DNA from: Prevotella sp.
Lineage (GTDB): Bacteria > Bacteroidota > Bacteroidia > Bacteroidales > Bacteroidaceae
NCBI GenBank assembly: GCA_017619755.1
Contig: JAFZRU010000018.1
Location: 1-64,000 of the forward strand
DNA length: 64,000 bases
Reading direction: 5' to 3'
The notes below the pieces were generated by a model that saw nothing but the letters and a program-made list of their open reading frames with translations, was not told the DNA's origin and made no database searches. Below, piece after piece: positions 55,413 through 64,000 of this stretch (position 1 is its first letter; the number at the start of each line of letters is the position of its first letter). The position numbers and the translations under genes were made by a program.

Positions 55413-55511
55413 ACAGGGAAAATAATGCTTTGCCATAATCATTTATGGCAAATGCCAAGGCTCCTTTCTCGATTTGCTTGATTTCCATTGTTATGACTGT
55501 AAATCATTATT

Positions 55512-56135
55512 TCAACCCACTTCCACCAGCACACGCTCCAACCTCAGTCCGAGGCGCAACCTCAGGTTGATGGTCATCATTTGCTCGTATTTTGTGTTGA
55601 CGCCGGAGTAGGCGTTCACATACAACCCATCCCCGACATCCTTTTGCGAAGCCCTATGTTTGAGGTTGTCAAAAAGTCGGTCACTGATGATATTTTCTCC
55701 CATCATTCTGATTTTCAGGTCGCGCACACGTTTGGCATCCGCATATTTCACCACTTCTACAAGAGTGTCGGTCACCGTGCGGTGGCAAGTCACCCGACCG
55801 TCGGGGTAGGTTACCTTCACCAAGCAACGTCCGGCTCCTGTTGGTGTTCCGCCTTCAATGGTCTCGTTCGATTTTTTCCGCTCTACCATTATTACTTCTC
55901 CTTGCTTTCGCAGACGACACGAGAAACTGGTTCGCAGTTTTTTTAGCATTGGTGTCAGCTTTTGGTTCAACAAGAAGACAGCTTCTTGTGTCACATATTC
56001 ACGTTCCATCTTTCTCAATGCCGCCTTTTGCTCTTCGCTTGCTTCCAATCCCAACTCCTCGAGTAACTGGAAAACGTTATGCAATTTGTCAAGTCCTTCT
56101 TTTTTATCCATAGCCATAACTTTCTCTTGTTCCAT
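55512..56135 (-). CDS. Defence-island protein of unknown function, paralogue 1
   Basis: The 207-residue protein starts at ATG 56135, 2 nt after the stop of the paralogue; a GTG one codon earlier is an alternative. The first about 95 residues are helical (LHNVFQLLEELGLEASEEQKAALRKMEREYVTQEAVFLL). The last about 105 match the paralogue: KVTYPDGRVTCHRTVTDTLV, EVVKYADAKRVRDLKIRMMG, ENIISDRLFD and a DVGDGLYVNAYSGVNTKYEQ end. No enzyme motif is visible. As last gene of the seven-gene operon it may be a DNA- or protein-binding accessory factor. I do not recognise it. Confidence 0.8.
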   Translation of the reverse strand: MEQEKVMAMDKKEGLDKLHNVFQLLEELGLEASEEQKAALRKMEREYVTQEAVFLLNQKLTPMLKKLRTSFSCRLRKQGEVIMVERKKSNETIEGGTPTGAGRCLVKVTYPDGRVTCHRTVTDTLVEVVKYADAKRVRDLKIRMMGENIISDRLFDNLKHRASQKDVGDGLYVNAYSGVNTKYEQMMTINLRLRLGLRLERVLVEVG

Positions 56136-56137
56136 CA

Positions 56138-56737
56138 CTACACCCTTTCTATTTTGAGGTTCAAGTGCAGAAGTTTGTTAATTGTGCATAGTTGGTCGAA
56201 TTTGAGGCCTGTTGACGACAGCGTGTTCACATAAAATCCATTACCCACAGGTTTTTGCGCCCTGCGGTATTCGTACCGTTCATACAGTTTTTTGGATACA
56301 AGGTCGTTGCCGTTCATACGAATCCCAGCTTGTCTCACTTTTTCCGGCCCAATGATTTTCACTACATCCACCATCGTCTGTGACACCATTGGATGGCACA
56401 CCACTTTTCCATCTGGAAAAGTCACTTTGATGACGCCTTTTTTCTGACGGTTGGAGTATGCTGCCGACGTCGTTGTGCTTTGGGGTACTACGACGGGTCG
56501 TGAAATGGGAGATTCGATATGCACACCTGTTTCCGGGTCGTAGGTCATATCGAGCACGAAGTCTCCATAAAAATCTGCCATTAGCAATGCCAATAACTCT
56601 TTTATCTTTGGAATCACCGTGTTGTCTATGTACTCTCCCTCCATCCTTGTGATGGCTTTCATTTGCTCTTGACTCACGGGCATGCCAAGCATCTTTAGCA
56701 TTTCCATGGCCTGATAGGCTTTCTCCAATTCATCCAT
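56138..56737 (-). CDS. Defence-island protein of unknown function, paralogue 2
   Basis: The 199-residue protein has a helical N-terminus (MDELEKAYQAMEMLKMLGMP, VSQEQMKAITRMEGEYID). The C-terminal domain is shared with the next gene: KVTFPDGKVVCHPMVSQTMV, DVVKIIGPEKVRQAGIRMNG, NDLVSKKLYE, PVGNGFYVNTLSSTGLKFDQ. Conserved positions include PDG-V-CH, VVK, IRM-G and G-YVN, so both copies are under selection despite overall divergence. The shared domain suggests a winged or small mixed alpha/beta fold for nucleic-acid or partner binding; this is inference. It starts 7 nt after the HerA-type ATPase gene. Confidence 0.8.
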   Translation of the reverse strand: MDELEKAYQAMEMLKMLGMPVSQEQMKAITRMEGEYIDNTVIPKIKELLALLMADFYGDFVLDMTYDPETGVHIESPISRPVVVPQSTTTSAAYSNRQKKGVIKVTFPDGKVVCHPMVSQTMVDVVKIIGPEKVRQAGIRMNGNDLVSKKLYERYEYRRAQKPVGNGFYVNTLSSTGLKFDQLCTINKLLHLNLKIERV

Positions 56738-56744
56738 ATCGTTT

Positions 56745-58343
56745 TCAAATTAAATGAGACACTTTGATTTTTTGCCAGTGCTTGCCTATGCCCAGAGCCA
56801 TATTGTAGGCATCCTTTGTGATGAGTTCTCCTTTCTGCAATCCTGCGATGGCTTGTTTCACTTCTTGAAGGGCTCCCCCGGATAGTCCGAAGAGGTCTCG
56901 CAGCACATTGTCGTTCTGTTGTTGCTGTTTTATGATGAGAGGATATTGGGCATTGGCGTAGAAGTCGAAATGGCGGCTTTTGAAACTCTCCATATTTTGC
57001 GTGGCGAGGATGATGCTCATACCTTTGTTTCGCCCCACGGCGATGAGGTTTTGCAACGGCTTGTTCTCGAAGCTTAGCATGTAGTGCGCCTCGTCGATGA
57101 TGGTGAAGTGGCGTACCTCCACACGGTTGTCGTTGGAGGCTTGCTTGGGCAACTGCTCGTAGATGTTGTTAAGTTTGGAGATGACAAAATAGATGATGGC
57201 TTTTGCCATGATGCCGTCTTTTTGGTATCCTCCGAGGTTGATGATGTAGCAGTCGTTCATCAAGTCGATGGTGTCTTCTGAGGCGAAGGTGCGGTTTCTC
57301 ACTAATTGGAGGAGTACGGAGACGATGCTGTCGGCATCGTTCTGCTTTCTTTCTGGCAGGAGGGCGATGTAATTATCAAGCACCTCCTCGAAAGTGACGG
57401 GTCTGAAAGCCTTGGCTTGGTATGCATTGATGATTGCTTGGCTGAGGCGGTTGTCCATATTGGCACTGATGCGTGCCGCCGAGATGGCACACAGCGAAGT
57501 GGCAAGCGAGGTGGCGTAAAGGTTCACTTCGTTGATAGGTCTGCCAGTGAAGTCCTTGAAAGGTGTGAACGGAAGCGGTTGCTCGATGGGGTTGAGAATG
57601 GCTTTTCGGTCGGTGTTGAATTTCTGAAGCCATTCATCATTCTCCGGGTCGGAGAATTCACCCTTGTAGTCAAAGAGAAGGAAATTGACCGGATAATGGG
57701 TGTCAGACGATGCTGCCCGAAGTTGGTTGATAAGTACGGCGAGTAGATTGGTTTTCCCAGAGCCGGTGGTCCCCGCCACGAGTATCTGCGTGTTGGCGAT
57801 GCTGCGGCTGTTGATGTCGAGTTGTGCCGGATTGCCATTGTCGTAAGTTCCAATGTTGAGCAACAACTCTGGGATGTCATCAGGCGTCTTTCCCCCTCTG
57901 AGGGGTGAGAAGCGCAGCCACTCGTCCACGCCTCCCTCTTTCATGAGAAGGTCTCTGCCATGGAGCATTTCTTGTGCGAGTACCTTGCTGACGAAGATAC
58001 TGGAGTTCCATTCAGCGTCCACGTCCTTGAAGCGTAATTTGAGCAAGGCCAGGAACACGGCTCTGAGGTTGGCTTTGGTGAAGAATGTGCCGGGGAGCGG
58101 TTCGGAATTTTTGGACATTTGTAGCTCCATGGCCACCTTGATATTGCGAGGTGCCGGGTCGCTCAACCCTATGAGGAGGCATGTGCGCATCACCGTACTC
58201 CAGTTGAGGGTAATGGGTCTCACGTTGTCTGAATATTCGTTGAGGTTGATGTGGCTCTCCAAGAGTTGTTTCACGTTGGCGAGCATGCTTTGCATGTCTC
58301 TCACCCATCGAAGACCGTCGAGTTTTATCTGTTCTATTTTCAT
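56745..58343 (-). CDS. HerA-type ATPase with DndE-like N-terminal domain
   Basis: Start at MKIEQIKLDGLRWVRDMQSM gives 532 residues. Residues 1-140 resemble DndE (DUF1832), the small DNA-binding subunit of DNA phosphorothioation: helices around TVMRTCLLIGLSDPAP and LPGTFFTKANLRAVFLALLK. Residues about 160-532 are a HerA/FtsK (DUF87) motor: Walker A GTTGSGKT at 191-198, a FLLFDYKGEF strand near 221-230, Walker B FTIIDEAH at 413-420, sensor-like IILATQN near 444-450. HerA motors form hexamers that translocate DNA. A DndE-HerA fusion would couple recognition and translocation in one chain. It begins 7 nt after the DndD-like gene, in the order dndD-dndE known from sulfur-modification clusters. The N-terminal match is by eye. 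Confidence 0.82.
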   Translation of the reverse strand: MKIEQIKLDGLRWVRDMQSMLANVKQLLESHINLNEYSDNVRPITLNWSTVMRTCLLIGLSDPAPRNIKVAMELQMSKNSEPLPGTFFTKANLRAVFLALLKLRFKDVDAEWNSSIFVSKVLAQEMLHGRDLLMKEGGVDEWLRFSPLRGGKTPDDIPELLLNIGTYDNGNPAQLDINSRSIANTQILVAGTTGSGKTNLLAVLINQLRAASSDTHYPVNFLLFDYKGEFSDPENDEWLQKFNTDRKAILNPIEQPLPFTPFKDFTGRPINEVNLYATSLATSLCAISAARISANMDNRLSQAIINAYQAKAFRPVTFEEVLDNYIALLPERKQNDADSIVSVLLQLVRNRTFASEDTIDLMNDCYIINLGGYQKDGIMAKAIIYFVISKLNNIYEQLPKQASNDNRVEVRHFTIIDEAHYMLSFENKPLQNLIAVGRNKGMSIILATQNMESFKSRHFDFYANAQYPLIIKQQQQNDNVLRDLFGLSGGALQEVKQAIAGLQKGELITKDAYNMALGIGKHWQKIKVSHLI

Positions 58344-58350
58344 GGTTTCT

Positions 58351-60360
58351 TTATATCGTTGTGTGCATTCCGAAATAATCATTTGTCACGGTGGTGCATT
58401 GCGCGTCCTTGTCGCGGTGCAGCGTGTATGTTTTCCCCACGTAGGGTGCTATCTTGGCGAAGTCGTGCTCGGCGGTGATTTCCGTGTCGGTACTCAGGAG
58501 GATGGTTTGCAATGCGAGGTCGGGGAAGTAGTTTTCCAAGATGATGTCGCGGCTCTCTTTGTCGAGTACGCCCATCACGGTGTCAATCATCACGGGCGGT
58601 TCATAGTCGCCTAAATCGTAAAGCACCTTGAGCAGCACCTGCATCACCGTTTGTTTCGCACCAGCATTGAGTTGGTTGAGATAGATTTCGTTGCCGTTCC
58701 TGTGGTAGATTTTAAACGAGATGTCTTCGCTTCCTTCTTGTGAGAGTTCCACCTTTCCCACATATCCTGCGTATGCCACGAGGTTGAGGTTGAGTTGCTC
58801 ACGCATCATTCGCTCGATGCTTGCCTTTTTCGCCCTAAGCAGTTTTACGGAGAGCTTGTTGAAGAAATCGGGCAGTTTGCACAGCAGGTCGTATTTGGGG
58901 TCCGGAACCAAAGGGATGTCGTAGTCGTAACGGCTGATTTTCTTCTCCAAATCCTTTATTTCCTTCTTCAGGGTGTCTATTTCGGCCTTTGTCTGAAGCA
59001 TTTTCTTGCTGTTGGCTTCGTATCTCTCCATGAGTGAATAGTCGTGTCCGCTGATGGCCCTTCGGCATTCTTCCAGTTGTTCACGCCGTTGGGGCATGCT
59101 CGTGAGGTCGAGATTGATGCGCTCACGCTTCTCGTCCAGCAAGATGAAGGGATTGGTGTAGGATGAGTTGATGAGCGTGTCAAGCACTTCGGTATCCACC
59201 GGGGTGAGGAAGGGGTATTCGTCTGTCACATCGTTGTGTTCTTTCTCGGCTAACAGTTCCTCCACGATGGCCATGGTGTCCATTTCACCGATGGCGGGAT
59301 GGTGCCGGGCTATGATGGCTACTACCTTTTGGGTCAGTTCTTCCATCTGCTCCTCGTTCCATTGGCTGCCGTGAGCCTCCGCCACCGCTTTCTTGGCATT
59401 GAGCAACACCTCCATTTCTGTGCGGATGCTCTCTGCCAACCGTGGGATGATGACATTGGTCTCCAAATCCTTCACCAAGTTGTCTGCTTCTTGGCGGTAT
59501 TCCTTCTCCCTTTTGCCAAACTGCTCTATGTCTTCTTCCAAGCGTCGCATCTTGTCGCGTGTCACCTCGTCGGCGTTGCGCCCTTTTATGAGTTGGTCGT
59601 ATTCCTGCTTGTTGTCATGGGCATAGGCCAGACAATCGGCATATTGTGCCTCTAACTGTGCCAGGATTTCCTCCTTGTTGTGCTTTTCCCTGACAAGGTT
59701 TTGGTATTCCTTGCGTTGGTTCTCGTTCTCCATTCGTTCGGCTTTTTTCTCGGCCAACATCTCGTCGGAGCTTTTTCGCATCTGATAGTATTTGCTGAAT
59801 CCCATCACAGAGTTGACAATCTTCTCTATCAGTTTGTTAATCTGCTCCTCTTTAAGCAGTTCGCTGGTTTTCATGGCATCGAAGAGGAAATATCTGCTCA
59901 AGTCTTCAGGCAGGTTGGCTGCGATGAGTTTATTGATGCTGGACTTGTTTTCTTCCCTTTCTTTTGGAGGTGTTCCTGATCCGTAACGGTATGTACTTCC
60001 AGCCATGTTGAGAGTGACGGACTCCAGCACCCTTCCTTGCGTGTGTTGGTAAGCTCTTGTCAACTTGTAAGGTTGCTCCGCTCCGAGTACGAAGCCGGTG
60101 AAGTCTATCTGTAGCACGATTTGCTTGTTTTCCATTCCCTCTGCCACTTTCACTCCTGCGTTGAAGAGTTGCTCAAATATGGCGGCGTTTTTGATTTCGA
60201 GGCCATATAGGGCATGGTAGATGGCATCGAAGAGGGTGGTTTTGCCACAGCCGTTGCCACCTCCCACGAGGATGATGGGGCGGTCGGCTGACACGTCGAG
60301 GTTCAAGTCGAGGTGCTTGTAGGTCTTGTAGTTTTCGGCGTAAATCCTTGTTATTTTCAT
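58351..60360 (-). CDS. dndD: DndD-like SMC/Rad50-type ATPase
   Basis: Start at MKITRIYAENYKTYKHLDLN (669 residues), overlapping the stop of the small upstream gene as ATGA. Walker A is GGGNGCGKT (33-41). A coiled-coil middle (about 205-520) contains Glu/Lys-rich helices. Near the end are the ABC signature QLNAGAKQ (563-570), Walker B-like VMIDT (590-594), then VLDKESRDIILENYFPD and the LSTDTEI block (622-628). The combination VIDT-x-LD-YFP-LSTDTEI is characteristic of DndD, the ATPase of the Dnd DNA-sulfur modification complex, rather than of RecF or Rad50. No DndC sulfurtransferase is seen in the window; it could lie beyond the right edge or be truly absent. Confidence 0.88.
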   Translation of the reverse strand: MKITRIYAENYKTYKHLDLNLDVSADRPIILVGGGNGCGKTTLFDAIYHALYGLEIKNAAIFEQLFNAGVKVAEGMENKQIVLQIDFTGFVLGAEQPYKLTRAYQHTQGRVLESVTLNMAGSTYRYGSGTPPKEREENKSSINKLIAANLPEDLSRYFLFDAMKTSELLKEEQINKLIEKIVNSVMGFSKYYQMRKSSDEMLAEKKAERMENENQRKEYQNLVREKHNKEEILAQLEAQYADCLAYAHDNKQEYDQLIKGRNADEVTRDKMRRLEEDIEQFGKREKEYRQEADNLVKDLETNVIIPRLAESIRTEMEVLLNAKKAVAEAHGSQWNEEQMEELTQKVVAIIARHHPAIGEMDTMAIVEELLAEKEHNDVTDEYPFLTPVDTEVLDTLINSSYTNPFILLDEKRERINLDLTSMPQRREQLEECRRAISGHDYSLMERYEANSKKMLQTKAEIDTLKKEIKDLEKKISRYDYDIPLVPDPKYDLLCKLPDFFNKLSVKLLRAKKASIERMMREQLNLNLVAYAGYVGKVELSQEGSEDISFKIYHRNGNEIYLNQLNAGAKQTVMQVLLKVLYDLGDYEPPVMIDTVMGVLDKESRDIILENYFPDLALQTILLSTDTEITAEHDFAKIAPYVGKTYTLHRDKDAQCTTVTNDYFGMHTTI

Positions 60361-60575
60361 TGCGGCAGGTTGTTGAGGGCTTTCTTGATGATTTGGTTGA
60401 GTTTCTTTTGCTCCACCACGTTTTGCTTGTTGCGCTCGTCGTTGTAGGGCTTCAGAATGTATTCCTTTAGCCATTCTTCATCGATGCCGCTGTCGCGGCA
60501 CGACTGCTCTATCAGTTCCATATCTTCCTTTCTCACTCCGTAATGCAGGAAGGTTCGTTCAATTCCTCTTGGCAT
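60357..60575 (-). CDS. Small (72 aa) protein of a DNA-modification cassette
   Basis: The protein begins MPRGIERTFLHYGVRKEDME and is helical and charged throughout, ending NQIIKKALNNLPQ, with no signal or membrane segment. Its stop overlaps the DndD-like start (ATGA), indicating translational coupling, and it starts 12 nt after the Res stop. Short proteins of about this size are known next to dnd-type and other modification genes; I believe this is one of those but cannot search. It may be a subunit that bridges or regulates the ATPase. Confidence 0.78.
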   Translation of the reverse strand: MPRGIERTFLHYGVRKEDMELIEQSCRDSGIDEEWLKEYILKPYNDERNKQNVVEQKKLNQIIKKALNNLPQ

Positions 60576-60587
60576 GATTCTATCGTT

Positions 60588-62963
60588 TTATAAGGTTTTC
60601 TTGTTCTCTTGTTCCGGGAAAAAGGCCTCCCACCCTGTGGTGTCGGCGGTGGTGTTGATGGGGTGGGGCGAGTAGTACCACACGCCGTTGCGCTCGATGA
60701 TGACGCCGCCGCTCAGATGTTGGTCGGCGCGTGAAGGCTCCTGCATGTATTTCAGTAGGGCGTTGTGCTTGGCGGGGGCTTCTGCATCGCTCATTTCGCT
60801 CTTGGTGTCGAAGAGCATCACCATTCCGTTTTTCAGGCGAATGATGAAGTCGATGTAGAAGAGGGACTCCTCGCCGCCGGAGGTGGTGTATGGGATGGAG
60901 TAGTGCTGCTTACCCTCGTCGCCATTCTTGTACCACCAGTCAATACTTGCGGCATTGTCTTCGAGGAAGTCTCTGAAGCGTTGCTCTGGCGTGGAGGCTC
61001 CTTTCAGTTCGATGAAAGGAAGCAGTGCGTGGTCTGTTACACGGAGACGTGCTTGATGTGTCTCCTCCTTGTAGAGCCGCTCTGCCGGCACTTCCCATGT
61101 GTAGTCCTCGAAAGAGCGTTGCCTCGCCTCCCTTTGCCGCTTTTGCAACTTGCGCAAATAGAGGTCGAGAGCCTTTTGGATGATGTTGGTGAACTTGGGC
61201 TTGTTCTGGTGATATAGCACCACTTTTCTTGCGTCGGTTTCGAAGAGTTCAAACAACTCTTCCATGGCTTGCAGGAGGTATCCGGCGAGTACGCCCGTGC
61301 TATGTGCCTTCTCAAAGTTGGTGAGCAGGCTACGGCAGTAGTCGGTGTAGATGCGGCTCACCTCGCCGGCACTCCTGGCAAACTTGTGCCGCTCGTTCAC
61401 GTCGATAAAGCCCTCTTCGTTTTGGAATACGAGGTTGGTGGGTATTTCCACGTTCACGTTCCTCACGTCCAAACGTATCAGTCCCGCCACTTTCTGGCGG
61501 TTGATGGCCGCTTGGTTTTCCGGTGCCGGTGGGTCGGGGTTCGGTTCGCTGTCGCTCCCGTCTCCATTCAGTTCTTGCAGGGTGAAGATTTGTAGCGGGG
61601 TGTTCAGAAGCCAGTTGCGGCGGAAGCAGTCGAGAAGCACGTGTTTGAAGTCGGGACCCAGACGGTTGCGGTCGCAGCTTTTATAGACGCTATAGTAGGA
61701 TTTCAACTCCACGTTGTGAAGCCCGTCGCGGCGGACGGCCTGCAGCACGCCCTTGTTCAGGTAGTCCATGTCCTCCGCCACAATCTGGATGCGGTCTCGG
61801 CTGATGTCGGTATAAACATATCCCACATTGAGGGTTTCAATGGTGTAGAACCGCTGTTGGGGCATCCTCAATATCCGTCCCACGGTCTGAATGGTGAAGG
61901 TGTCGCTTTGCATCTTGCGGAAGATAAGCAGCACGGCGGCGCGGGGGCAGTCCCACCCCAAGGCGATGGCCTGTTTGAACAGCAGGGCCTCCACGGGGTT
62001 GTCGAACTCCTCAATGCCCTCCAAGTTGCACTTTTCTTTAGAGAGCCAGACGGCCAAACGTCCACTTTCTTCGCTGATGCCGTGAACACCGCGTAGGTAG
62101 GCTTTCACCTGCTCGGCGATGGCGGTATCTTCAGCAGTCATTGTTTCGCTCGTGTCGTTGGGAAGTTGGATGAGCAGGAGGGGGTTGATGCTTATGCCGA
62201 GCTGGCGGTAGGCAGCGGCTAATTGCTCACGTTTCGCCACGGCTCGTGACAGCAGATGTTGGTTGAGTTCCCGCTCGTCGGTGTACCCATCTACAAGGTC
62301 GGGGTTGAGCACTACCTGTTTTTTAATCATCTCCTCTGCCACCACCGCCTCTCGGGGGATGGTGACACGGTAGTCGGAGGAGGTCTTCGGTGTGGCGGAA
62401 ATGCGGATTTCCAACTTGGGCTGTAGTGCATGAAGCACTTTGGCTGACTTGTCGGCGGTGCGCGACCAGAAGAGATGCTCCTCGTCAATCACCACCACCA
62501 AGGGCAGGCCGTGCTCCTCTTGTGTGCGGCGGACGAGTTCGAAGAGCGACGCCCCCTGCTCTGTGTCGCGCACAATGACACCGTTGGCCTTGTTGATGCT
62601 CTCCCAGTTGACAAAGAGTATCTCGCCAGGCTTCAGCCAACCGTCGGACTGGTCCAACTCGTCGTACATTACCGGGCGCAGGAGATGGGTGTCAGTGAAA
62701 AAGCCCTTCATCTTGAAGTAGCTCTGCTGGTGGAGTTTGTTTGGGGCAATCCACATAAAGGCTGCCTCGCGGTATGGGCAGTCGGCACGAGCGTGAAGTT
62801 CGCTCACCAACTCACCGAGAAACTCTGAGGTCATCACCGTCTTGCCAGAGCCAGTGGGAGCCTTGAAGACGAGCTGCTTGCGGTGGCCGGGCAGCTTCAG
62901 CAAACGGATGGATAACTCCAAAAGTTCATATATTGCATCTTTTTGGTAGTTGAGTTGCTTCAT
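60588..62963 (-). CDS. res: Type III restriction enzyme Res-like helicase-nuclease
   Basis: The 791-residue protein has a superfamily 2 helicase core: Walker A APTGSGKT (35-42), DEEH box at 160-163 (VVVIDEEHLFW), SAT motif at 189-191, and motif VI QTVGRILRMPQ near 370. At the C-terminus FYIDFIIRLKNGMVMLFDTK carries the PD-(D/E)XK nuclease residues Asp705, Asp719 and Lys721, as in Res subunits. These enzymes cut DNA after ATP-driven movement from unmodified sites recognised by Mod. It starts 13 nt after the Mod stop, the usual mod-res order. It is somewhat shorter than typical Res (about 900-1000 residues). Confidence 0.9.
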   Translation of the reverse strand: MKQLNYQKDAIYELLELSIRLLKLPGHRKQLVFKAPTGSGKTVMTSEFLGELVSELHARADCPYREAAFMWIAPNKLHQQSYFKMKGFFTDTHLLRPVMYDELDQSDGWLKPGEILFVNWESINKANGVIVRDTEQGASLFELVRRTQEEHGLPLVVVIDEEHLFWSRTADKSAKVLHALQPKLEIRISATPKTSSDYRVTIPREAVVAEEMIKKQVVLNPDLVDGYTDERELNQHLLSRAVAKREQLAAAYRQLGISINPLLLIQLPNDTSETMTAEDTAIAEQVKAYLRGVHGISEESGRLAVWLSKEKCNLEGIEEFDNPVEALLFKQAIALGWDCPRAAVLLIFRKMQSDTFTIQTVGRILRMPQQRFYTIETLNVGYVYTDISRDRIQIVAEDMDYLNKGVLQAVRRDGLHNVELKSYYSVYKSCDRNRLGPDFKHVLLDCFRRNWLLNTPLQIFTLQELNGDGSDSEPNPDPPAPENQAAINRQKVAGLIRLDVRNVNVEIPTNLVFQNEEGFIDVNERHKFARSAGEVSRIYTDYCRSLLTNFEKAHSTGVLAGYLLQAMEELFELFETDARKVVLYHQNKPKFTNIIQKALDLYLRKLQKRQREARQRSFEDYTWEVPAERLYKEETHQARLRVTDHALLPFIELKGASTPEQRFRDFLEDNAASIDWWYKNGDEGKQHYSIPYTTSGGEESLFYIDFIIRLKNGMVMLFDTKSEMSDAEAPAKHNALLKYMQEPSRADQHLSGGVIIERNGVWYYSPHPINTTADTTGWEAFFPEQENKKTL

Positions 62964-62976
62964 CTCTTTTGGCTTT

Positions 62977-64000
62977 TTAGTTGATATTTTCTTCCTCGGC
63001 GGTATCGAAGAGACTGTTGGGGATTTTTTTCACTTCCTTTGGTGGGTCAAGGGGCTGCTCGGCACGGCGGGGGAGCACTTTCTTGTAGGCGTCATAAATG
63101 GCGGCTGGGAGGGCTATGAGTTGAACCTTGTCCTCTACTTCCCAGAACTCATCATCGAAGGCGTAACGCTCGGGGGAGAAAATATAAATTTTCACGCGAC
63201 TGCCACCCAAGTCCATCTTGGAGATGGCAAGAGACAGCTGTGAAGCCAATGTCTCTTCATACACCACGAGCATGTGCTTCCGACCATCGCAAAAATAACG
63301 AACAAGTTCCTTTTGCAGGACAAGGTTGCCAAAAATGCCCCGCTCTTCATACAAGTCTTCCTTGATGCAGAGCATGTCGGTGGCGGCGGAAACCAAGGCA
63401 CGCATGTTGCGAAGCGTGCGGGAGCGAGGAAGCAAAGCGGTGCGGTAGTAGCGAAGGCTGTTGCCACTCAAGCCCTCCACATACTGACCCTTTGGGGTTG
63501 TGTAACCGCAAATCACTCGTTTGTTGCGCTCGTAGGTCACCTGCTCGCAAATCCCATTCTCGTTGTTAGTCACCAAGATGCATTGACGATGGCCACCATC
63601 CTCAGAGTTTAACTGCATCGTGGCATGTAGGGTTGTGCCAGAGCCGGCGAAAAAGTCAAGGATGAGGGAAGACTTGTCACTTGCAATTCGAAAAATAAAA
63701 GATATAAGCGTTGAAGGTTTTGGATAAGAAAAGATAAATTGTTGTATAACGCTGGACAATTCTGTTTTTGCTGTTCTTGTACTCCCAACCATATCAAATG
63801 TCCAAATTGTACTTACAGGTGTAGGGGTTAGATTATCTGCATATATACGAAAATTTGCAGACCAACCCTTCTTGCCTTTAATCCATTCGATTCTTTCAAT
63901 TTCATCATTGTATTTTTCTTTACTCCATCGCCAACATCCATTGTCACCATTTGTTTCTTTAGGATAAATAATTGACCCGTCAGGAGCTTCAATGCCATAA
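62977..64000 (-). CDS. mod: Type III DNA methyltransferase Mod (N6-adenine, 5' end outside window)
   Basis: The frame is open from the right edge, with 340 residues visible. An internal Met near 63792 is not the start, because coding sequence continues beyond it (YGIEAPDGSIIYPKETNGDN, GCWRWSKEKYNDEIERIEWI). The block STIWTFDMVGSTRTAKTEL and the AdoMet-binding motif DFFAGSGTT are typical of beta-class N6-adenine methyltransferases of type III systems, in which the catalytic DPPY motif precedes them and lies outside the window. The C-terminal part is less conserved. It is the first visible gene of the operon and would supply host-protective methylation and target recognition to Res. Confidence 0.9.
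   Translation of the reverse strand, partial: YGIEAPDGSIIYPKETNGDNGCWRWSKEKYNDEIERIEWIKGKKGWSANFRIYADNLTPTPVSTIWTFDMVGSTRTAKTELSSVIQQFIFSYPKPSTLISFIFRIASDKSSLILDFFAGSGTTLHATMQLNSEDGGHRQCILVTNNENGICEQVTYERNKRVICGYTTPKGQYVEGLSGNSLRYYRTALLPRSRTLRNMRALVSAATDMLCIKEDLYEERGIFGNLVLQKELVRYFCDGRKHMLVVYEETLASQLSLAISKMDLGGSRVKIYIFSPERYAFDDEFWEVEDKVQLIALPAAIYDAYKKVLPRRAEQPLDPPKEVKKIPNSLFDTAEEENIN

Follow-up and report, generated by a model that had tools for sequence, protein, structure and literature searches.

A conserved five-gene operon of Bacteroidota in which a type III restriction-modification pair adjoins a Dnd-like DNA-handling module

What the core of ABC ATPase and DndE does in Dnd systems, and whether this core picks the DNA targets, are questions on which a locus of a Prevotella species (assembly GCA_017619755.1) bears, at which a core of this kind lies beside a type III methyltransferase. 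The stretch analysed, referred to below as the window, comprises 64,000 nucleotides (positions 1 to 64,000 of contig JAFZRU010000018.1, handled as C29, 93,697 bases) from a draft genome of 3.7 Mb that is 85.9% complete. A series of seven leftward genes begins outside the window, past its right edge, and ends at position 55512; their transcription order is Mod, Res, a small protein of 72 amino acids (Sp), a DndD-like ABC ATPase, a HerA-type ATPase, and two paralogues, P0002 and P0001, with neighbouring genes separated by at most 13 nucleotides (nt) or overlapping. The question of target choice becomes testable at such a locus because the core adjoins a methyltransferase whose target region is readable and exchangeable, and because the swaps have already been made in nature. 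The first five genes constitute a real, conserved and modular system.

The conservation of this unit was examined in a collection of 84,980 species genomes scanned with three HerA proteins, the results being the best 80 of 184 relatives. A flank of at least 2.2 kb upstream of HerA is available for 72 loci, all of which have DndD there, while Sp is present at 71 of them and Res at 70. Where at least 5.2 kb is available upstream (60 loci), the genes occur in the fixed order Mod-Res-Sp-DndD-HerA on one strand in 58, or in 56 of 58 when L043 and L080, the records of the query seeds G034 and G056, are set aside. The order at L033 seems to differ because its DndD open reading frame (ORF) is over-extended, and it is identical in all 58. 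The two exceptions are L036, which holds Res, Sp, DndD, HerA and two other ORFs on a flank that ends before Mod could be reached, and L077, in which DndD is a remnant of 92 residues only. Chance adjacency of the five genes was considered and is ruled out by the 58 of 60 loci, so that the unit proposed in an earlier note on this window is borne out by conserved gene order. All gaps are at most 60 nt in 31 of the 58 loci, the other 27 having some longer gap; five longer gaps that were sampled hold a YhcG nuclease, a RhuM protein, an Abi_2 protein, an AAA ATPase with a GmrSD protein, and an HNH protein, respectively. The hosts come from gut and environmental sources and, judging by record titles, belong mostly to the Bacteroidota, together with one member of the Ignavibacteriales and one genome labelled Alphaproteobacteria; the cultured Flavihumibacter profundi KCTC 62290 (L064) is among the carriers. 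The system is rare, being present among 60 genomes in the Prevotella genome itself, G034 and G056 only; among 395 genomes of the phylum searched at E 1e-30, matches beyond the Prevotella genome were confined to G342 and G334, which carry a solitary HerA without the operon.

The second characteristic of the system is the absence of DndC, which the earlier note had observed within the window together with that of DndB. In a PADLOC scan beyond the right edge (flank L001), none of eight ORFs scanned past position 64000 matched a Dnd model, and they gave weak matches of other kinds only; the whole genome was not searched for DndA or DndB. A Dnd island continuing past the edge is ruled out as far as these eight ORFs reach, since the flank holds the rest of Mod and then genes without a Dnd match. 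For DndC, the PAPS-reductase family PF01507 gave 0 matches in the Prevotella genome (85.9% complete), with a control that was positive in 14 of 14 genomes, and the DndC model TIGR03183 likewise gave none there. Among 36 genomes bearing the system or its HerA, DndC exceeds the cut-off in two, G342 and G466, and is linked to the system in neither: in G342 it is on a different contig from HerA, and in G466 its position exceeds the extent of the record holding L029, and L097 has no sequence in common with L029. The methyltransferase is the sole modification gene recognised in the operon, and DndF and DndG are not among the matches listed for the seven window proteins, to which that search was limited.

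Pairwise distances between loci separate the five genes into two groups. In the 50 loci where Mod, Res, DndD and HerA are all full-length (48 for pairs involving Sp), the distance correlation r reaches 0.953 for DndD-HerA, 0.901 for Sp-DndD and 0.868 for Sp-HerA, against 0.577 for Mod-Res and 0.32-0.50 for pairs that cross the two groups; the distances are uncorrected identities, not freed from shared ancestry, and the contrast between pairs is what counts. Permutation, applied to the six pairs that do not involve Sp, gave maxima of 0.11-0.14, which the observed value of each of these pairs exceeds. These values indicate that Sp, DndD and HerA co-evolve as one module and that Mod-Res is an exchangeable cassette. 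An exchange can be recognised between L034 and L035, where HerA is 97% and DndD 89% identical, yet Res is only 49% and Mod 47% identical.

The same comparison can be extended to the part of Mod that is presumed to read the target, namely residues 185-335, which were assigned by their position between two motif blocks and show a mean identity of 0.20, compared with 0.69 before and 0.53 after. The correlation of this region with the DndE-like domain is 0.04, with HerA 0.05, with DndD 0.05 and with Res 0.08, values that partly reflect alignment noise at such low identity. Among the 16 pairs of loci whose DndE-like domains are more than 85% identical, the target region is at most 43% identical in 15; the sole exception, L059/L061, is a pair in which everything is identical or 99% identical, and the alignment is able to detect likeness, because the target regions of this pair do align as alike. 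In L040/L042, the DndE-like domain is 100%, DndD 98% and Res 97% identical, and the target region 15%. Since the DndE-like domain does not track the target region, specificity is placed in Mod and the other module is treated as sequence-blind; Mod probably sets the specificity, with the Dnd-like module acting downstream.

Res-anchored searches, which covered 296 and 345 genomes, reveal that the cassette also occurs without the module. Res of the same subfamily is found inside the system in G000, on contig C2 of G056 and in G674 (where the contig stops after the DndD start), and a Mod-Res of the same subfamily without the module in G641, G487, G697 (with a gene split over two contigs) and on contig C13 of G056, a genome that also has the full operon. 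The lone Res of the latter contig and the system Res of L087 share 93% identity. The module is also absent beside more distant Res genes in G336 and G207, whereas the Res of G166 cannot be judged lone because only 230 bases of its contig remain past the gene. A Res tree, made by a quick method, with long branches and with G166 counted as lone, requires at least three changes between the system and the lone state. These occurrences indicate that Mod-Res can live alone. The Sp-DndD-HerA module, for its part, is nearly always beside a Mod-Res, G342 and G334 being the important exception.

At the level of the individual proteins, PADLOC models match the operon in separate parts (MTase_III, REase_III, DndD or PbeC, and DndH/HerA), and the type III Mod/Res pair described in the earlier note is confirmed, both members matching PADLOC type III models. 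Mod, the predicted adenine methyltransferase and first gene of the operon (62977..64000, minus strand), is truncated by the window edge and extends to contig position 64761, the likely ATG, giving 594 amino acids (aa). MTase_III matches the 340-aa part within the window (E 6.4e-33), DPPY stands at residue 105 and FxGxG at residue 371, and DPPY is kept in 57 of 57 relatives examined; as a member of this family, Mod would mark host DNA with N6-methyladenine (6mA). In type III systems, 6mA is placed on one strand, and cleavage requires two inversely oriented unmethylated sites. Tandem Mod genes ahead of a single Res were observed at L060 (1797-5396, the second Mod being split) and L090 (1628-5461), which possibly provide double specificity with one nuclease. 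Another type III-like Mod, which precedes a helicase-like ORF, lies on contig C36 (L169) of the Prevotella genome; it is different in kind from the window pair, judging by the start of the sequence.

Res (60588..62963, minus strand, 791 aa) combines a superfamily 2 (SF2) helicase with a C-terminal PD-(D/E)xK-like nuclease; it matches ResIII with 45.7 bits and also PADLOC REase_III. Residues D705, D719 and K721 are invariant across 27 aligned rows and are read as a predicted PD-(D/E)xK nuclease motif, while among 60 relatives, DExH is present in all and a loose nuclease pattern in 57. Three REase_III models match 27 of 27 Res sequences (best 6.5e-23), compared with 6 of 27 and 2 of 27 for two PbeA models (best 4.1e-08), and no PLD family was matched by the window Res.

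Sp (60357..60575, minus strand, 72 aa) is weakly related to the Sp-DndD family PF20306, to which the window protein scores 22.5 bits, below the cut-off of 27.2; the family matches 36 of 44 aligned Sp members at E of at most 0.01 (best 4.5e-12), the window protein included, and none of the PADLOC Pbe models matches Sp. Pfam describes PF20306 as a small protein of certain Dnd DNA modification systems, which suggests that part of the arrangement has been seen before. The ABC ATPase that follows (58351..60360, minus strand, 669 aa, with a coiled coil) aligns over its full length with the PADLOC models of DndD (204.5 bits) and PbeC (170.6 bits), and scores 169.8 bits against TIGR03185, under the cut-off of 245.85; the DndD of L107, which lies beside a DndC, is likewise under this cut-off (224.4 bits). 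Its ABC signature is of the LN..(A/S)KQ type, as is that of every system DndD compared (68 of 68), with A or S replacing the glutamate of the LSxGE signature present in 9 of 9 comparator DndD (six from DndE-HerA operons and three beside a lone DndE). The LN-type signature, as far as these alignments indicate, is a molecular mark of the system DndD. A shared CxC zinc hook is absent, C-x-C or C-x2-C being found in only three DndD rows, at three different positions. At L077 (8321-10001), where DndD is reduced to its last 92 residues, the remnant is next to a transposase-like ORF (judged by eye), and HerA remains open.

The fifth protein (56745..58343, minus strand, 532 aa, or 545 aa from an alternative start at 58382) consists of an N-terminal domain and a HerA/FtsK-type ATPase. 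In the HerA part, similarity to DndH is confined to the ATPase end of the latter (profile positions 1356-1658 of 1715), and the solved structure closest to it by sequence is DptH 7es4 (E 2.3e-16, with a profile of 47), placing this domain closest to DndH/DptH by sequence. The DndE label, which in Dnd systems belongs to a protein with two RHH domains, is more difficult to support. No DndE match is given by Pfam, NCBIfam or PADLOC for the window HerA protein, the 25 families listed out of 43 Pfam families for 47 aligned HerA proteins do not include DndE, and a search of the PDB with the profile of the N-terminal region returned no DndE, whereas a DndE profile finds three. A profile of 41 N-terminal regions aligns locally and in register with nine DndE domains, with a score of 22.4 and a probability of only 5.1%, and this score exceeds those of all 40 controls with shuffled columns (best 17.5). 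G143 and G309 each have a DndE-HerA fusion downstream of a PF20306 protein and a DndD, and the DndE of these fusions passes the Pfam cut-off. It is because of the weak profile similarity and the synteny with such true fusions that the domain is called DndE-like; it is an unproven candidate for a divergent DndE. Of the DndE-HerA fusion announced in the earlier note, the HerA part is DndH/DptH-like, while the DndE part depends on these two observations.

Several further observations concern HerA relatives. Compared with four other aligned HerA, that of G034 (L009:4367-5902) is missing some 21 residues in the stretch that separates the ATPase motifs. Two unannotated faecal records labelled 'Bacteriophage sp.' matched the HerA query, one of which, MT835906.1 (15.6 kb), encodes at 1295-2836 a HerA with 52.7% identity across 95% of the protein's length; this record may be a bacterial contig rather than a phage. 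A plasmid search gave nothing at E 1e-20, and a scan of IMG/VR found no relative.

The operon can be compared with several known systems, foremost the PbeABCD cassettes. According to the available text of PMC6459918, these encode a helicase-nuclease, then a protein of 66 aa, an ABC ATPase and lastly a protein of 152 aa; pbeB, pbeC and pbeD are absolutely needed and pbeA partly, virus replication is stopped, and cleavage of viral DNA was not seen. In the available text of PMC10853773, PbeD is identified as DndE and PbeC as a CxC-type ATPase, and the HKD nuclease of PbeA is considered to argue for cleavage. The present operon shares with the PbeABCD and CxC systems the order of helicase-nuclease, 66-72-aa protein and DndD/CxC-type ABC ATPase, with the place of DndE filled by the DndE-like/HerA protein. 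It differs in that Res is of type III with a PD-(D/E)xK-like motif instead of a PLD/HKD nuclease, that DndD is without the shared CxC hook, and that the DndE part is divergent and fused to HerA. Its modification gene is a type III Mod. As a further likeness, the cassettes in print that lack dnd genes are often close to methylases, as are 155 of the 320 cassettes without dndCD (PMC6459918).

With regard to the Dnd systems, the available text of PMC10853773 describes DndE-HerA fusions (clade-3 HerA) adjoining a DndD-related ATPase, DndDE dyads that lack the other phosphorothioation genes, and CxC systems that include cytosine methylases along with a small protein; other HerA capture systems have been described in PMC12839542, as far as its available text goes. 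Relatives of this kind were encountered here at L011, L107 and L109, where DndD and a DndE-HerA fusion stand in one operon as in the window, L107 being a DndC-DndD-DndE.HerA operon; unlike the window operon, these loci have DndC and the LSxGE signature and not Mod-Res, and at L107 and L109 (L102 and L105 in the Pfam scan) DndE is over the Pfam cut-off. A third type of partner for the set of PF20306 protein, DndD and DndE-HerA was observed at L108 (3688-9522) and L110 (3750-9798), where the set follows a protein of 666 or 734 aa, respectively, with weak matches to sigma-70 and RNA polymerase alpha; DndC and Mod-Res were not noticed at these two loci. Compared with DndABCDE, the operon is without DndC, and its DndD is under the TIGR03185 cut-off and lacks the canonical signature. 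It has a HerA-type ATPase domain in common with DndFGH, its HerA matching the ATPase part of DndH only. As in type III systems of the EcoP15I type, the operon has adjacent Mod (DPPY, FxGxG) and Res (helicase and nuclease motifs) genes that have lone relatives, and it departs from them by three further co-evolving genes downstream. Two strains of Prevotella intermedia have neither a type III nor a Dnd system, according to the available text of PMC5608340.

The earlier note's statement that the arrangement is unrecognised holds in part. Methylase-linked CxC and Pbe cassettes, as well as DndE-HerA fusions beside DndD, are known from the available text of PMC10853773 and PMC6459918. The type III Mod-Res pairing was not seen in the available text of PMC10853773, in which 'Mod' is absent as a whole word, and no report of a type III pairing with a Dnd-like module was found in the open-access literature, so that an earlier mention is not excluded. 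What may be new is the pairing of type III with a DndD/DndE-HerA-like module.

The reading to which we assign about an even chance is that the operon is a type III restriction-modification system with a Dnd-like DNA-handling add-on, the module acting downstream of Mod-Res by blocking or moving DNA. Mod, by means of a target-recognition region of its own, would determine the sequence acted on and mark host DNA with 6mA, and Mod-Res, a complete type III system by itself, would recognise unmodified DNA. Sp, the DndD-like ATPase and the DndE-like/HerA protein would form one co-evolving complex with no role in sequence choice, which, after engagement of Mod-Res, would load onto the DNA and translocate or clamp it. 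HerA works with NurA in archaea, and incoming DNA might similarly be fed into the Res nuclease or else be blocked from replication. The operon would then be the type III counterpart of PbeABCD, with Mod standing where the sulfur-modifying genes stand. Inferred from the comparisons above are the existence of the complex and its need for engaged Mod-Res, as well as the blocking or translocation step and the defensive role. Several points weigh against this reading: the mechanism is a proposal drawn from comparison alone; the survey query was derived from operon members, with the best 80 of 184 relatives kept; the distances retain shared ancestry, as stated above; and the DndE assignment is a weak point of the analysis. 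In two congeneric species, G342 (L111, L155 and L161) and G334 (L112 and L162), system-type HerA and DndD lie on separate contigs, with Sp in G342 elsewhere again, and no Res of the system family was found in either, in a search that had no positive control there and whose query works elsewhere. Their DndD has the same kind of signature motif as the system DndD; a type III pair of another kind is present elsewhere in G342, and G334 gave a weak Mod-like match only. This distribution suggests a functional set surviving dispersal. Because the module persists in these genomes without the system Mod-Res, the coupling may be looser than proposed.

This dispersal also favours a rival that is clearly less probable than the add-on but still to be taken seriously, in which type III restriction and a self-contained Sp-DndD-HerA DNA capture system are two independent defences on one transcript, co-selected and mechanically uncoupled. 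Such an arrangement agrees with the modular evolution and exchange of Mod-Res, and with the related DndD and DndE-HerA sets that have other partners (DndC at L011, L107 and L109, Sp and a large protein that weakly matches sigma-70 at L108 and L110), but it has to account for a linkage kept in 58 of 60 loci across Bacteroidota and one genome of the Ignavibacteriales, in which the type III pair holds its place in the gene order despite many exchanges of Mod-Res. We regard as unlikely the strong form of the earlier note's proposal, in which DndD/DndE serve as a scanner or platform for the modification step and Mod replaces DndC. Operons of DndC, DndD and DndE.HerA do exist (L107), and the available text of PMC10853773 assigns target scanning to the pair of ABC ATPase and DndE and proposes that methylase recruitment replaces phosphorothioation; the idea is disfavoured because the presumed Mod target region changes freely, being unrelated in 15 of 16 pairs, beside a near-constant DndE-like domain, DndD and HerA, and the same Mod-Res subfamily does without the module at four loci. 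A slightly more doubtful proposal still is that Sp-DndD-HerA is a guard or last-resort module that would detect when a phage inhibits the type III enzyme and respond by stopping the cell. The small protein beside the ATPase resembles the one for which a regulator role in CxC systems is proposed (PMC10853773, available text), and Abi_2, RhuM, GmrSD and YhcG family genes are inserted in the operon of some relatives, yet the matches listed for Sp, DndD and HerA include no toxic domain such as a nuclease or NADase.

The seven tightly spaced leftward genes listed in the earlier note are all present, with Mod cut by the edge and with some spacings and starts corrected. The gaps are 13 nt between Mod and Res and 12 nt between Res and Sp. 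DndD most likely starts at 60360, which gives a 4-nt overlap with the Sp gene, an alternative reading being a protein of 707 aa whose gene overlaps that of Sp by 118 nt. For HerA, a start at 58382 would overlap DndD by 32 nt, and a start at 58343, as in relatives, leaves a gap of 7 nt. HerA and P0002 are 7 nt apart, and P0002 and P0001 meet at 56138. A terminator-like hairpin with a T-rich tail directly follows the last gene (55429..55452, minus strand) and is no commoner than chance (1 found, with a mean of 1.0 in shuffles). Beyond the right edge, the remaining part of Mod is followed upstream by rightward ORFs, the first with a weak helix-turn-helix match, and the Bacteroidota promoter pattern had 0 matches in this flank (L001).

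The two accessory paralogues, P0002 (56138..56737, minus strand, 199 aa, with a conserved N-terminal and a variable C-terminal region) and P0001 (55512..56138, minus strand, 208 aa, the last gene), had been counted as part of the operon in the earlier note and are placed outside its core here, because relatives are present in only 21 of the 80 HerA-anchored loci and the family also adjoins several other defence genes in related genomes (neighbours named by eye from sequence). A core role for the pair is ruled out on the same two grounds. The window paralogues have no Pfam match over the cut-off and no NCBIfam or PADLOC match, and PDB searches with the paralogue and Sp alignments gave nothing meaningful. 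Within the family, the N-terminal region is conserved and the C-terminal regions are exchangeable, that of L020 having topoisomerase C-terminal repeats. Members beside defence-like genes were noticed at L137, L138, L139, L143, L145, L148 and L150, and the family is possibly an unrecognised group of defence accessories.

A more general form of the add-on reading, to which we give somewhat less than an even chance, is that a Dnd-derived complex of Sp, DndD and DndE/HerA, with an altered ABC signature and no part in target choice, would work as a plug-in motor with almost any type III Mod-Res and turn site-specific cleavage into capture or a replication block. If true, this would be a core of the DndD/DndE type whose specificity is outsourced to an exchangeable methyltransferase, a situation that we have not met in print. 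It is suggested, moreover, that type III restriction is able to carry a motor module, which would alter the annotation of such loci.

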